NCBI GenBank assembly: GCA_949299535.1
Contig: CASGAQ010000001.1
Span: 67,886-131,885 of the forward strand
From: an uncultured Eubacteriales bacterium
GTDB lineage: Bacteria; Bacillota; Clostridia; Oscillospirales; CAG-272
Reading direction: 5' to 3'
DNA length: 64,000 bases
Shown here in pieces: positions 3,051-63,639 of the stretch. The notes below the pieces were generated by a model, which was given only the letters and a program-made list of their open reading frames with translations, did no database searches and was not told the DNA's origin. Position 1 is the first letter of the stretch; each line of letters opens with the position of its first letter. The position numbers were made by a program, and so were the translations under genes.

Positions 3051-4424
3051 ATGGACGAAATTATTGTATTTCATGAACAGATCGAAGCGCTTATAGAAGA
3101 AAAGCGTTTCAAAGAGCTGAAAGAACTGCTTGTACGGGCGAATGCGATAGACGTCGCTGAGGCACTGAACGGTCTTTCGGAAAAAGACCTCATGCTCGCA
3201 TTTCGCCTGCTTGATAAGGATCAGGCGGCTGAAGCGTTTGTCGAAATGGAGCATGACGAGCAGGAAATGCTCATACGCGGCTTTACGGACAAGGAGCTTC
3301 GCGCAGTCGTAGAGGAGCTTGAAGTAGACGATGCGGTAGATATCATAGGAGAAATGCCGGCAAACGTCGTTGCCCGTATAATAAGGAGCGCGGACAGACA
3401 AACGCGCAGTCTTATCAATGAGCTTTTGCTCTATCCCGCAGACAGCGCCGGCGGTATAATGACGCCGGAATATGTTTCGCTCAATCCTGACATGACGGTA
3501 GATCAGGCTTTTGAGAAGATACGCAAAGTAGGGCCGGACAAAGAAACGATCTATACCTGCTATGTAACGGAGAACCGCCGTCTTGAGGGCGTCGTATCGG
3601 TTCGCTCGCTTCTGATAGCGTCAAAAGACACGAAGATACGCGATATCATTGAGGATAACGTTATCTCCGTCAAGACGACTGACGACAAGGAGTTTGTTGC
3701 CGAACAGATACGAAAATACGGCTATCTTGCCATACCCGTTGTAGACGCTGAGGAAAAGCTTGTGGGTATCGTCACATTCGACGACGCTATCAATGTAATC
3801 TCGGAGGAAGCGACCGAGGATATCCAGAAAATGACGGCTATCACGCCTGACGAACATCCGTATCTTCGTTCGAGCGTGTTCAAGATATGGAAACAGCGCG
3901 TGCCGTGGCTCATTTTGCTGATGGTGCTTTCCACCGTAACTTCAAGGATAATCGGCTTTTACGAAGCCGCGCTTTCCGCTTGTATCGTGCTCAGCTCCTT
4001 TATCCCGATGGTAATGGATACCGGCGGCAACGCGGGAAATCAGGCGTCGGTAACGATAATCCGCGGTCTTTCTCTCGGAGAGATAAAGGTGCACGACGCT
4101 TTCAGGATAGTATGGAAGGAGATGCGCGTATCGTTTATCTGCGGTCTTTCGCTCATTCCGGTAACTTTTATTAAAGTTATGTTTTTCGACGGACTTTATA
4201 AAGACGCAGACGGCATTATCATCTCCGCAGTCGTGTCGGTGACTATCTTTTTGACTGTTTGTATCGCAAAGCTCATCGGCGCTCTGCTCCCTATCGTGGC
4301 TAAGACAATAAAGCTTGATCCCGCCGTAATGGCAAGTCCGATTATCACGACTATGGTGGACGCAATAGCTCTTATGGTATATTTTGTTCTGGCTTCGAAT
4401 TTTATCCCTGCGCTTGCCGGCTGA
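3051..4424 (+). CDS. mgtE: MgtE magnesium transporter
   Basis: A 457-residue homodimeric Mg2+ channel of the inner membrane. Residues 1-130 form the acidic alpha-helical N domain, about 135-255 hold the paired CBS domains (MTPEYVSLNPDMTVDQAF begins the first), and about 285-450 carry the membrane domain with the family signature PMVMDTGGNAGNQA. The N and CBS domains normally bind Mg2+ and close the pore, so the protein itself senses cytosolic Mg2+. The ATG at 3051 is chosen because an in-frame stop lies just upstream (3042-3044). Its Shine-Dalgarno is distant unless the leader hairpin forms, which points to control by the leader and uORF at 2885-3039. A terminator follows at 4452-4486. Confidence 0.93.
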   Translation: MDEIIVFHEQIEALIEEKRFKELKELLVRANAIDVAEALNGLSEKDLMLAFRLLDKDQAAEAFVEMEHDEQEMLIRGFTDKELRAVVEELEVDDAVDIIGEMPANVVARIIRSADRQTRSLINELLLYPADSAGGIMTPEYVSLNPDMTVDQAFEKIRKVGPDKETIYTCYVTENRRLEGVVSVRSLLIASKDTKIRDIIEDNVISVKTTDDKEFVAEQIRKYGYLAIPVVDAEEKLVGIVTFDDAINVISEEATEDIQKMTAITPDEHPYLRSSVFKIWKQRVPWLILLMVLSTVTSRIIGFYEAALSACIVLSSFIPMVMDTGGNAGNQASVTIIRGLSLGEIKVHDAFRIVWKEMRVSFICGLSLIPVTFIKVMFFDGLYKDADGIIISAVVSVTIFLTVCIAKLIGALLPIVAKTIKLDPAVMASPIITTMVDAIALMVYFVLASNFIPALAG

Positions 4425-33062: not shown

Positions 33063-33161
33063 AGAAGAGTAAAAACACGGGCGTCAAGTGCCGTCGGGAC
33101 GGGGAGTTGCCGGGCGGACGAAAGCGAAAACGCTGCGGTCCGCGTTTTGCATCCCGCTTCG
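33063..33161 (+). ncRNA. Tetrahydrofolate (THF) riboswitch
   Basis: The leader has the conserved blocks of the THF-I riboswitch in order: AGAGTA near the start, GCGTCAAGTGCC, GGGACGGGGAGTTGCC, GGACGAA, GCGGTCCGC and TGCATCCCGCTTC. The last block closes a pseudoknot with ACGGGG. The gene that follows is a folate-type ECF S component, the standard target. Binding of reduced folate should favour the expression-platform stem at 33245-33291. Confidence 0.9.
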
Positions 33162-59382: not shown

Positions 59383-60198
59383 TTATCCGAGAAGAGCGCG
59401 GTCGTTTGCAAAATCCGTTCCGCTTGTCTGAGAGAATTTTTCCATGAGCATTTCGACCGTGAGTTTTTTCTTTTCTTCGCCTGCAACGTCGAAGATTATC
59501 CTGCCTTCGTGCATCATTATAAGACGGTTGCCGTGAGTGATGGCGTCTTTCATATTGTGCGTTACCATGAGAGCGGTGAGCTTGTTCTTCTCAATGAGGG
59601 AGTCGGATATCTCCAGCACTTTTGCGGCTGTTTTGGGATCGAGAGCCGCGGTATGCTCGTCCAAAAGGAGGAGTTTCGGCTGTTTGAGCGTAGCCATGAG
59701 GAGCGTGAGCGCCTGTCTTTGACCGCCGGAAAGCAGTCCGACTTTTGTAGTCATTCTATTTTCGAGTCCGAGGCCGAGAGTTGCGACGAGCTCACGGAAC
59801 TGATTGCGCTCCTTTGAGGAGATTGCCCAGCGGAGAGTGCGTCTTTCGCCGCGACGTGCGGCAAGCGCGAGATTTTCTTCTATCTGCATATTTCCCGCTG
59901 TGCCCGTTACGGGGTCTTGGAAAACCCTGCCGATGTACTTTGCGCGTTTGTATTCAGAAAGCTTAGTTATATTTATGCCGTCGACGTAGATAGTACCTTC
60001 GTCTATCGGCCAAACTCCCGCCGTAGCGTTGAGCATAGTGGATTTGCCTGCGCCGTTGCCGCCGATTATCGTTACGAAATCGCCGGGAGCCAGATCAAGG
60101 TCTACGCCGGCAAGCGCGATTTTTTCGTTTACGGTTCCGGGGAAGAATACCTTGCGTACGCCTTTTAATGAGAGCATGGGGTTTTGTGCTTCAGACAT
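59383..60198 (-). CDS. ABC transporter ATPase (TrpZ-like)
   Basis: A 271-residue ATPase. Walker A GGNGAGKST (about 46-54), the signature LLSGGQRQALTLLMATL, Walker B LLLLDEHTAALDP and switch His in THNMKDAITHG are intact. It pairs with the permease whose stop overlaps its start by eight bases. It belongs to the TrpXYZ-type importer group (COG1101-like). The substrate is unknown; tryptophan or tyrosine is known for relatives. Confidence 0.88.
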   Translation of the reverse strand: MSEAQNPMLSLKGVRKVFFPGTVNEKIALAGVDLDLAPGDFVTIIGGNGAGKSTMLNATAGVWPIDEGTIYVDGINITKLSEYKRAKYIGRVFQDPVTGTAGNMQIEENLALAARRGERRTLRWAISSKERNQFRELVATLGLGLENRMTTKVGLLSGGQRQALTLLMATLKQPKLLLLDEHTAALDPKTAAKVLEISDSLIEKNKLTALMVTHNMKDAITHGNRLIMMHEGRIIFDVAGEEKKKLTVEMLMEKFSQTSGTDFANDRALLG

Positions 60199-61153
60199 TT
60201 TCTGTTTCCCCCTTTTTATCTGATTTTTTGCCGCTTGTTTTTTTGATTTTGTTAAGTGCGTTTGTAAGCACCAAAGCGATAACTACGACTATTGCAGTCA
60301 TTATCTTAAGGTCTGTTGTTGGCATGCCGGACCAGATAACTATTGCAACTACAAGACGGTAGACTATGGCGCCGACAACGATTCCCGCAAGTGTAAGGAA
60401 GAAGCTTTTGGTGCGAGAGAAGATAGCTTCGCCTATAATTATGGAGGCAAGACCTATTACTATGGAGCCTATGCCCATATTTACGTCGCTGTAACCCTGA
60501 TACTGGCAGAGGAAAGCTCCGGAAAGAGCGATAAGACCGTTTGAAAGCGCGAGATCCACTATCTTCGTGAAGTCGGTGTCGATACCCTGAGCGCGGCACA
60601 TTTTTTCATTGTTGCCCGTCGCGCGGATTGCAGAGCCAAGTTCGGTGCCGAAGAACCAGTAAAGCGCTCCGATGACCAAAAGGCAGCTCACGATACCTAC
60701 TCCGATGGAAACGGCTGTCTTTGTAAAGCCGCCGTCGAAGAGCGAGTTTAAGAGCGTTCTTATCTTGGAGTATATCGTGCCGTTATTGAATTTGAGCAGA
60801 GAGAGGTTTGCAGTGCCGCTCGTGCCTGTGGCAAAGCTCATAATGTGGATATTGATGGAATAGAGCGATATCATCGTGAGGATACCTGCAAGTATCGGCG
60901 GTATCTTCAGTTTTGTGTGAAGCACGCCTGTAACAAGACCTGCAACGCAGCCGGCAAGAAAGGCAATGAATATCGCCAAAAACGGATTTACGGATTTGTA
61001 TATAAGACAAGCTGTTACGGACGCGCCGAGAGTTATACAACCCTCGCATGTCAGATCGGCAAAATCAAGGACTCTGAACGAAAGATATACGCCGAGCGCG
61101 AGTATCGCCCATATGAGTCCCTGAGTAAGACCGGAGAGCAGAATGTTACCCAT
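60191..61153 (-). CDS. ABC transporter permease (TrpY-like)
   Basis: A 320-residue inner-membrane permease with about nine hydrophobic segments. GSAIRATGNNEKMCRAQGID is the coupling region of the branched-chain/ribose/TrpY type permeases (COG4120-like). It overlaps the ATPase gene by eight bases and lies 105 bp after the binding-protein gene, with a strong hairpin at 61195-61228 between. Confidence 0.88.
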   Translation of the reverse strand: MGNILLSGLTQGLIWAILALGVYLSFRVLDFADLTCEGCITLGASVTACLIYKSVNPFLAIFIAFLAGCVAGLVTGVLHTKLKIPPILAGILTMISLYSINIHIMSFATGTSGTANLSLLKFNNGTIYSKIRTLLNSLFDGGFTKTAVSIGVGIVSCLLVIGALYWFFGTELGSAIRATGNNEKMCRAQGIDTDFTKIVDLALSNGLIALSGAFLCQYQGYSDVNMGIGSIVIGLASIIIGEAIFSRTKSFFLTLAGIVVGAIVYRLVVAIVIWSGMPTTDLKIMTAIVVVIALVLTNALNKIKKTSGKKSDKKGETENV

Positions 61154-61258: not shown

Positions 61259-62302
61259 TTATTCGCCTATGTTGAGCGAATGTACCGTAGCGCAGGAATT
61301 TGCAATAACGTTGTCTGTGGGAATATAGATAGCGTCTACGCCGGCTTCGCTGAGAGCGATAAATGCTGCATGGATATCATTTATATCGCCAAGACCTTTT
61401 TCGACGAAATTATATCCTTTTTCGTTGCAGTATTTTTTAGCCATGTTTATCTGGAAAACGGAGTTTGTTTCGGCAGATGTATAGAGAAGTCCTATCGTGA
61501 TGTCTTCAGAGTCGAGTATCTCTGCTATAAGCTCGATCTGTTTTTCAACGGGGTTGATATCGGAAACACCGCATACGTTGCCGCCGGAGACTTCCATAGA
61601 CTGAACAAGGCCTGCGTCAACGGGGTTAGTAACAGCGTTGAAGATAACGGGAATTTTGGATTCTCTTGTAGCTTCTGCCGCAGCCTGAGATGATGATGTT
61701 GCGATAGTATAGATGAGGTCCACGTTTTTGTTTACGAAGTTTTCAGCAATGGTTACATTGTTGGAAGTTTCGTTGCTTGCGTTCTGGTTATCGATAGCGA
61801 CAGTCTTGCCTGCCTGGCTCATACGAACTGATATCTGATCGATAAAGCCTATGTTGCACTGGTCAAGAGCTACATGCTGCGTGAGCTGAAGGATACCGAT
61901 CGTAAAATCAGCGCCGCTTTCTACGATTGCGGACTCAACGCGAGTAACTTCGTTAGAAGATTCGCCGGTCGCGCGGGAAGTGATGGATTCGGGAATTGTA
62001 ATACCTATCTGTTCTGCAACCGCACTATTGACAGTGAGCGCGGGGTTGGGGTCTGTCTGAACGGACATTTTGGAAATATCCGAAATGCCGAGAAGGACGT
62101 CTGCCGCCATATCGCCCGCTTTAACTCCGAGACTGTAATAATCGACGCCGTATGTAGCTACGCCGCATGTGGAGTTCATGCCGCTTTCACCGCATACGAT
62201 GGGGATATTGTAACCTTCTTCGGAGCTGCAAGATGTCATGGAAAGAGTGCCGGCTATAAGTGCCGCTGCGGCGATAAGGCTGAGAAACTTTTTGATTTTC
62301 AT
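61259..62302 (-). CDS. Circularly permuted TrpX-type substrate-binding lipoprotein
   Basis: A 347-residue ABC_sub_bind (COG2984) protein. Signal peptide and lipobox MTSC end at Cys25. Residues 31-112 (NIPIVCGESGM, ATYGVDYYSLGVKAGDMAADVL, ITIPES) match the segment that normally forms the C-terminal quarter. Residues about 132-347 (FTIGILQLTQHVALDQ, NVDLIYTIATSSSQAAAE, AVTNPVDAGLV, GVSDINPVEKQIELI, DAIYIPTDNVIANS) match the normal N-terminal part, and the protein ends exactly where the IPIVCGES segment should follow. A 20-residue linker joins the halves. The order is signal-B-A instead of signal-A-B. The family is certain; the permutation is read directly. GGAG fixes the ATG. Confidence 0.9.
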   Translation of the reverse strand: MKIKKFLSLIAAAALIAGTLSMTSCSSEEGYNIPIVCGESGMNSTCGVATYGVDYYSLGVKAGDMAADVLLGISDISKMSVQTDPNPALTVNSAVAEQIGITIPESITSRATGESSNEVTRVESAIVESGADFTIGILQLTQHVALDQCNIGFIDQISVRMSQAGKTVAIDNQNASNETSNNVTIAENFVNKNVDLIYTIATSSSQAAAEATRESKIPVIFNAVTNPVDAGLVQSMEVSGGNVCGVSDINPVEKQIELIAEILDSEDITIGLLYTSAETNSVFQINMAKKYCNEKGYNFVEKGLGDINDIHAAFIALSEAGVDAIYIPTDNVIANSCATVHSLNIGE

Positions 62303-62335
62303 AGTTGTTCTCCTGCACGTTTTAATAAGATTTCA

Positions 62336-62452
62336 TTATATCTTCGCCGGTAAAAAGCGCGCGCATAAAAAAACAAAAAATCCGTGCAAACTGCACGGAA
62401 GACGATTCGTGAGATCATTCTGTTCTGCGCCGCTTTCATATGCGTCGCTCAT
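62336..62452 (-). CDS. Second small leader ORF (38 codons) crossing the terminator
   Basis: ATG at 62452 overlaps the stop of the first leader ORF as TAATG. The frame MSDAYESGAEQNDLTNRLPC continues through the terminator hairpin (62398-62382) and ends at TAA 62338-62336. It has no separate Shine-Dalgarno, so it would be made by re-initiation. A ribosome moving along it would open the terminator. It may instead be an accidental frame in a conserved RNA. Confidence 0.35.
   Translation of the reverse strand: MSDAYESGAEQNDLTNRLPCSLHGFFVFLCARFLPAKI
62373..62398 (-). terminator. Intrinsic terminator in the leader of the ABC operon
   Basis: Minus strand CCGTGCA-GTT-TGCACGG followed by ATTTTTTGTTTTTTT, 71 bp before the binding-protein ATG and about 230 nt after the promoter. 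Since the promoter lies upstream of it, it must be read through for expression: an attenuator. Confidence 0.8.
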
Positions 62453-62565
62453 TAAAGCCGAAAAGCTTTCAAAATGATAACGGTCGGACCCGCCGCGATC
62501 TGCTCCCACGGAGCTTTTCTCTCATGATAGAAGTCCGCGAAAAAACGAGTGGAACGCACAGACAT
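62452..62565 (-). CDS. First small leader ORF (37 codons) of the ABC operon
   Basis: ATG at 62565 has AGGG four bases upstream. The peptide begins MSVRSTRFFADFYHERKAPW, has a single Trp at codon 20, and ends in a hydrophobic, Arg-containing tail; stop TAA 62454-62452. The RNA also folds: CGGAC pairs with GUCCG and GCUCC-GUG-GGAGC forms a hairpin within it. An overlapping +1 frame gives an 18-residue peptide with six Arg. A tryptophan- or peptide-sensing attenuator is plausible for a TrpXYZ-like operon, but unproven. Confidence 0.4.
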   Translation of the reverse strand: MSVRSTRFFADFYHERKAPWEQIAAGPTVIILKAFRL

Positions 62566-62626
62566 TCGCCCTGCGCGACAATAATGCTTTTTATAATGAA
62601 TATATAATGATATAATTGTGAAATAT

Positions 62627-62655
62627 ATTATACCCTGCGTTCACAAAAAAGTCAA
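62627..62655 (-). promoter_or_regulatory. Promoter of the ABC operon leader
   Basis: Minus strand TTGACT (62655-62650), 17-base spacer, TATAAT (62632-62627). It overlaps the end of the methyltransferase gene and sets a leader of about 320 nt. Confidence 0.75.
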
Positions 62656-63512
62656 GGGTTTTTAATTTTCTTGTAAACAAATAATTCAACGTCTATTTTT
62701 GTGGAAAGTGACGAAAGGGATAAGAGTTTTTCCTTGTCGTTTAGGGATGTGCGGTAAAAATAAGGCGTCATTGCGAAAAGATTTTGAATGTCTTCGCGGC
62801 TTTCAAGAGTTATGTCATATGAGAGCGTTCTTTCTTCCGCAAGCGAGAAAAGACTTGTCGGCAGATCACGGCGGCCCTCGTTTTCATACGCGGAGTCGTA
62901 TATGGCGCGTTTCAATCCCATAAGATGTTCTTTGCCGGCGCCGACGAGAAAAAGCACGCCGCAGTCTTTGAGTACGCGAGCATATTCTTTTTCGGCGCAG
63001 GGAGAGAATATCGTCGTCACCGCGTCCATGCTTTCGGGCTGAACGGGAAGTGAGAACACACTTGCCACTCCGTAAAACGTTCTTTCGTCAAAGCCTTTGC
63101 GCGCCACGGCTTTTGCACCGGTTTTGACGCCTGCTTTCGAAAGGTCGAATCCGTAGACCAAGCGGTCTGTATTTTCCGCCATTTTGTTAGTGTAATATCC
63201 TTCTCCGCAGCCTGCGTCGAGTATTTTTGCAGGTGAGGCGCCTACATACTCGTCAATAAGCGCGTTTATCTGGTCTGCGATCTTGCTGTAATATCCTTTT
63301 GAAAGAAAAGCGTTTCTGGCGCGTATACATTCGTCGCTGTCACCGCCGGCTGCGTGCGATGTGTGCAGATTTATATAACCGTCGGAGGCAAAATCAAAAA
63401 GATGACGGCGCGCGCCGGTGCAGGCGGCGCTTTTTCCGTCCTCGGTCGGCAGAAGAGCTTTGCCGCAGACGGGACACATAAGAGTGTTTTCCATGATTTT
63501 TCCGTTTTTCAT
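62652..63512 (-). CDS. RlmA-type 23S rRNA guanine-N1 methyltransferase
   Basis: A 286-residue protein. The N-terminal zinc knuckle CPVCGKALL with the following ACTGARRHLFDFASDGYINLH and the SAM motif ILDAGCGEGYYTNKMA match RlmA(I)/RlmA(II), which methylate G745 or G748 of 23S rRNA; the latter subgroup confers tylosin resistance. The exact position cannot be told from sequence. Starts at 63512 or 63518 are both possible; AAAGG lies before them. Confidence 0.82.
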   Translation of the reverse strand: MKNGKIMENTLMCPVCGKALLPTEDGKSAACTGARRHLFDFASDGYINLHTSHAAGGDSDECIRARNAFLSKGYYSKIADQINALIDEYVGASPAKILDAGCGEGYYTNKMAENTDRLVYGFDLSKAGVKTGAKAVARKGFDERTFYGVASVFSLPVQPESMDAVTTIFSPCAEKEYARVLKDCGVLFLVGAGKEHLMGLKRAIYDSAYENEGRRDLPTSLFSLAEERTLSYDITLESREDIQNLFAMTPYFYRTSLNDKEKLLSLSSLSTKIDVELFVYKKIKNP

Positions 63513-63639
63513 AATCATTCGACCTTTTATCAATGAGAATTTACCATTATATTTTATCATGGCTGCAACACGCAGTCAAGATACCGTGTTTTTTACGGAC
63601 AGATTCATAAAAATGTGCAGAAAAAATTAGTTCGGTACC

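Follow-up and report, generated by a model that had tools for sequence, protein, structure and literature searches.

Organization of the locus

The window, i.e. the whole stretch of 64,000 nucleotides of DNA that was analyzed, carries an operon on the minus strand encoding a substrate-binding protein (SBP), a permease and an ATPase. The features of the locus, with the evidence on which each is based, are the following:

59383..60198 (-): ABC ATPase, 271 aa, same operon (Pfam)
60191..61153 (-): cognate permease, BPD_transp_2, 320 aa (Pfam, E 9e-32)
61259..62302 (-): permuted substrate-binding lipoprotein gene, 347 aa (profile and structure matches, orthologs)
62228..62302 (-): signal peptide and lipobox (MTSC25) to Cys25, residues 1-25 (sequence; orthologs also have such a leader)
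61964..62212 (-): block B, residues 31-113, the C-terminal part of ordinary PF04392/TrpX proteins, now in front (second alignment to 6hni, 3lkv and 3lft; tblastn)
61910..61963 (-): linker, residues 114-131, bridging the former C and N termini (spacing in permuted proteins)
61262..61909 (-): block A, residues 132-347, the N-terminal part of ordinary proteins (Pfam and PDB alignments)
62186..62188 (-): Glu39, equivalent of CD0873 Glu263 (alignment; invariant among permuted proteins)
62138..62140 (-): Tyr55, equivalent of CD0873 Tyr279 (alignment; invariant among permuted proteins)
62303..62655 (-): leader, with a sigma-70-like promoter at 62655-62627 and an intrinsic terminator at 62399-62381 (sequence)
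62652..63560 (-): RlmA-like methyltransferase, a syntenic marker outside the transporter (shared with congeners)

The open reading frame, the signal peptide with its lipobox, the order of the blocks and the C-terminal sequence SLNIGE were all present as described in the original prediction. Elsewhere in the window, a THF riboswitch aptamer (RF01831, 83.5 bits; 33063-33161, plus strand) was the only Rfam match at the gathering threshold.

The lipoprotein is a circular permutation

The PF04392 (ABC_sub_bind) profile matched the lipoprotein with a whole-protein score of 182 bits, above the gathering cut-off of 25.9, in two stretches of swapped order and not as a single collinear match. The best stretch aligned residues 135-341 to profile positions 2-204 of 293 (E 1.8e-53); the first two thirds of the model thus fall on these residues, and its C-terminal part lies upstream of them. 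The TrpX profile NF041285 also matched in two stretches, the best being residues 131-341 versus positions 29-235 of 322, with a score of 237.5 bits that lies below the cut-off of 390 for membership of this equivalog family. Against solved structures, residues 134-344 aligned to chain positions 25-228 of 6hni (CD0873), 10-208 of 3lkv and 4-209 of 3lft, and residues 25-113 to positions 235-307 (i-Evalue 2.5e-5), 234-300 (1.4e-8) and 206-291 (6.3e-5), respectively. A profile built from permuted proteins gave the same swapped picture against 6hni (second stretch, 9.6e-10), and in tblastn searches of normal genomes the second HSP lay downstream of block A. These swapped two-stretch matches, obtained with Pfam, with NCBIfam and with three solved structures, show that the 347-aa lipoprotein is a genuine, circularly permuted binding protein of the PF04392/TrpX type, as had been claimed from its sequence.

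The ends of the permuted chain were examined by comparing spacings. Counted from the start of PTDN, 20 residues remain to the end of the window protein and 19-21 in all permuted proteins measured; in normal homologs the Pro of the moved block lies mostly 22 residues from PTDN. The permuted chain therefore stops where the moved block would begin, which bears out the prediction on this point. The linker had been put at 20 residues, a figure that agrees with the block edges used at the time (ca. 18-20 residues) and falls short of the 26-28 residues that separate the profile-defined blocks in 18/18 permuted proteins measured. The notion that the export signal was kept in front of the moved block was also supported.

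Predicted structure and position of the cut

AlphaFold2, run with an input alignment of 13 rows that contained permuted sequences only and no normal-order fragments, predicted that the permuted protein forms one intact two-lobed type-I (cluster B) fold (pLDDT 90.4, pTM 0.86, no segment below 50), the outcome anticipated for a genuine permutation. In this model (mature numbering), a helix at 307-320 closes the chain and a strand at 10-12 opens the moved block. The cut thereby falls after the last helix and before the strand that follows it, not exactly at the lobe crossover where the new termini had been expected; going by general type-I topology, we take it to lie one strand before the crossover. 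The top Foldseek matches of the model were CD0873, TrpX and 3lkv, with only about 212-224 columns aligned. Such short alignments are expected for a permuted chain, because Foldseek keeps the chain order. Against Tp0684, a permuted binding protein of another family, more than 420 columns were aligned, with gaps and a poor rmsd.

Origin of the permuted order

The permuted order was probably made by tandem gene duplication, after which the outer parts were lost. In nine normal-order relatives (L072, L073, L074, L075 and L078-L082), two adjacent SBP genes occupy this operon position; the first step of duplication and trimming thus occurs in relatives, which makes the origin originally proposed plausible. 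Neither a fused (ABAB) nor a half-trimmed intermediate was found among the relatives inspected. Candidate fused double receptors from the 668-708 open frames proved to be adjacent separate genes or chance long frames (L076/L077). The main alternative, a direct rearrangement within the gene, would fit the absence of a fused intermediate and a linker in which no trace of a second signal peptide is visible. We nevertheless consider it unlikely: adjacent tandem copies are common at the same operon position, 4/9 pairs are in frame (about the proportion expected by chance), in the L072 and L074 pairs only one stop codon stands between the frames, and a signal peptide preceding the moved block is what trimming predicts.

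In several of the tandem pairs, the first SBP copy carries Asp at the position of CD0873 Glu263. Judging from these sequences, the pairs suggest two ligand specificities feeding one permease.

Operon context and function

The best explanation of the locus, to which we assign a probability of about 0.8, is that it encodes a functional permuted receptor of an ABC importer, with one origin, found in one Clostridia family and having an aromatic ligand, likely Tyr or Phe. After the lipid-anchored Cys, the chain would begin with the strand-helix block that closes ordinary CD0873/TrpX proteins; a linker of about 20-28 residues would then join the old termini, and the block that opens ordinary proteins would come last. 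The receptor would fold as a usual two-lobed type-I (cluster B) protein, close around its ligand, an aromatic amino acid and most likely Tyr or Phe, and deliver it to the adjacent permease and ATPase.

The operon is of the ABC importer type, with a lipobox in the SBP and an adjoining BPD_transp_2 permease and ATPase. The order SBP-permease-ATPase is kept wherever a permuted locus is covered by sufficient sequence, in line with the prediction of a cognate permease and ATPase for the receptor. In the tree, permeases from permuted operons form one clade (100/100) that coincides with the permuted SBP clade, and the window permease is 52-74% identical to the other members and 35-50% identical to normal-order permeases. 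By contrast to this, the ATPases of permuted operons intermix with those of normal operons in the tree. Co-adaptation of the permease to the permuted receptor may underlie the matching clades, although the same tree would also be expected if the operon genes shared one history and the permease evolved fast.

In the four congeners checked, the same methyltransferase (65-71% identity) is followed by a normal-order SBP, a permease and an ATPase; the window holds the permuted operon at this very site. On the simplest reading, the permuted operon apparently replaced a normal-order operon in place; the alternative is vertical descent with loss elsewhere. A second operon of the normal-order PF04392 type (SBP, permease, ATPase; L100, G000:C1:155480-156361) is present in the genome of the window, its SBP being about 32-33% identical to the permuted one.

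A new role as sensor or adhesin, in which the receptor would have stopped supplying the permease, was also considered. CD0873 itself has also been called an adhesin, the permuted clade is preceded by a long stem branch (0.87), and several genomes also hold a normal paralog. Such a change of role is improbable, given that a permease and an ATPase always adjoin the gene where the contig is complete, that the permease clade matches the permuted receptors, and that, at E 0.001, the query matches nothing else in 7/14 permuted family genomes.

Ligand of the permuted receptor

The best-scoring solved relative over both blocks is CD0873 (PDB 6HNI/6HNJ/6HNK), a tyrosine-binding, PF04392/COG2984-like lipoprotein of C. 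difficile, 36-37% identical over block A (Foldseek). CD0873 has the normal block order, and the permuted chain aligns to it only piecewise. In CD0873, Glu263 holds the tyrosine hydroxyl and Tyr279 keeps tryptophan out, which is let in by Gln284 of SP1069 (PMC6816091). The equivalents Glu39 and Tyr55 are invariant across the permuted alignment, and the Val/Ile-Pro backbone site of CD0873 is also kept. The Glu263 and Tyr279 equivalents are found as well in most normal-order relatives and hence do not separate Tyr from other ligands for certain. S. pneumoniae SP1069/TrpX (3LFT) and V. cholerae 3LKV belong to the same fold family and also bind an aromatic amino acid; they differ in having the normal order, in binding Trp and Phe, and in carrying Ala at the Glu263 position.

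Regulatory leaders provided a second line of evidence. T-box leaders were found at 10/13 permuted loci (E 5e-13 or better), with specifiers, read by eye from alignments and sequences, of UUC in five and UAC in five; no UGG specifier occurred among these 10 leaders. The leaders of the four congeners examined contain a T-box too. The T-boxes, reading Tyr or Phe codons and never Trp, together with the conserved CD0873 Glu and Tyr contacts, make Tyr or Phe the likely ligand of the permuted receptor. The label "TrpX-type" of the original prediction is thus apt for the fold family and probably misleading for the ligand. Import of tryptophan, as the TrpX name would have it, finds an argument in NF041285, a tryptophan SBP family, being the sole NCBIfam family matched. 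The score is, however, far under the cut-off, the T-box specifiers are of the Tyr and Phe type, and the Gln of SP1069 that admits Trp is Tyr in the permuted protein (PMC6816091), leaving the tryptophan reading with only a slight chance.

In the leader of the window itself no T-box was matched with E values as high as 10 admitted, though parts of it look alike by eye. Over 62303-62650 (-), it keeps the terminator and a GGCGGGTCCGACCGTTATC stretch resembling stem II of the T-boxes of relatives, and its UGGN region seems to read ATGATCTCACG, both as judged by eye. From these resemblances, the window leader may be a decayed T-box. Beside the permuted locus of L050, positions 3148-3316 (-) matched Vibrio RNA AS7 (RF02819) with 70.6 bits, below the gathering score; the matching segment is probably conserved coding sequence.

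Distribution, conservation and single origin

Scanning 84,980 species genomes yielded 13 relatives, all (13/13) in the permuted order and with 60-67% identity. The MAGs that carry them are separate ones, from sheep and deer among other sources, and the L043 copy is disrupted close to the end of a contig. Within the family of the window, the permuted form was found in 14/395 genomes in addition to the window (61-68% identity), one copy (G268) having one stop codon, and all other matches in the family were of normal order and at most 43% identical. The L043 / G268 gene lies in a record named Candidatus Colimorpha enterica (Bacteroidota in the NCBI taxonomy); apparently the same 5636-base contig is placed in the family of the window, and either the name or the binning seems to be in error. 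No permuted form was found outside the family in samples of ca. 390-400 genomes each from the order, the class and the phylum, which contained normal-order forms only; all permuted copies detected thus belong to the family of the window. Viral contigs searched contained no relatives, and plasmids searched gave normal-order partial matches only, with at most 60% coverage among the matches listed.

Removal of duplicates left 19 permuted sequences including that of the window, distinct sequences being counted as distinct species. Eighteen other species hence share the identical block order, with 60-69% identity overall, as foreseen if the order is genuine. An assembly artefact or a chimera of two half-genes, for which only the draft state of the genome (37 contigs) speaks, can be dismissed, because order, export signal, linker length and terminus are common to these 18 species in separate, independent assemblies, and the gene lies well inside its contig (129-130 kb of 199 kb). 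The permuted gene is under purifying selection, with dN/dS of 0.08-0.12 (about 0.1) in the closest pairs.

In a tree of the concatenated blocks (85 rows), the permuted proteins formed one clade (100/100) on the long stem mentioned above, and they again formed one group in trees of block A only and of block B only. Grouping of the permuted clade with forms from other families was equally likely (AU p 0.59). The permuted order would have arisen once and then have spread, or stayed patchily, in one Clostridia family together with a diverged permease.

Comparison with a known permuted receptor and significance

The protein is not the first natural case of a permuted transport receptor: Tp0684/TpMglB-2 of T. 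pallidum (5JX2), a lipoprotein of permuted type-I fold that binds glucose and has relatives among gram-positive bacteria of the gut, was described in 2016 as "Type Ic / cluster Bc" (PMC4990184). Both are natural circular permutations of type-I binding lipoproteins in ABC importers. Tp0684, by contrast, is a sugar receptor of another family, whose C terminus has received the first three strands of the N-lobe, giving a fourth crossover (PMC4990184); here, the last ca. 85 residues moved to the front. Compared by the description in PMC4990184, the present protein falls outside Type Ic / cluster Bc, its moved block being the C-terminal one. The permuted TrpX-type receptor is an event independent of Tp0684, with a different cut. 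No paper on a permuted TrpX/CD0873-type protein was found in a literature search that covered few subscription journals.

A more far-reaching reading, tentative and in our estimate slightly short of even odds, is that this second independent type-I permutation, in an aromatic family, co-diverged with a dedicated permease, displaced the normal operon in place, and changed the receptor-permease interface to match an anchor moved beside the hinge. If true, the membrane anchor would have left the start of the N-lobe and would now sit beside the hinge on the other lobe. Transport receptors have rarely undergone circular permutation in nature, with one earlier case in the literature searched; the second concerns another family, another cut, about 19 species and a distinct permease clade. 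It allows the direct question of whether the moved anchored terminus and the hinge connections matter for docking to the permease, for which the natural normal-order operon of the congeners, at the same site, is a ready-made control.
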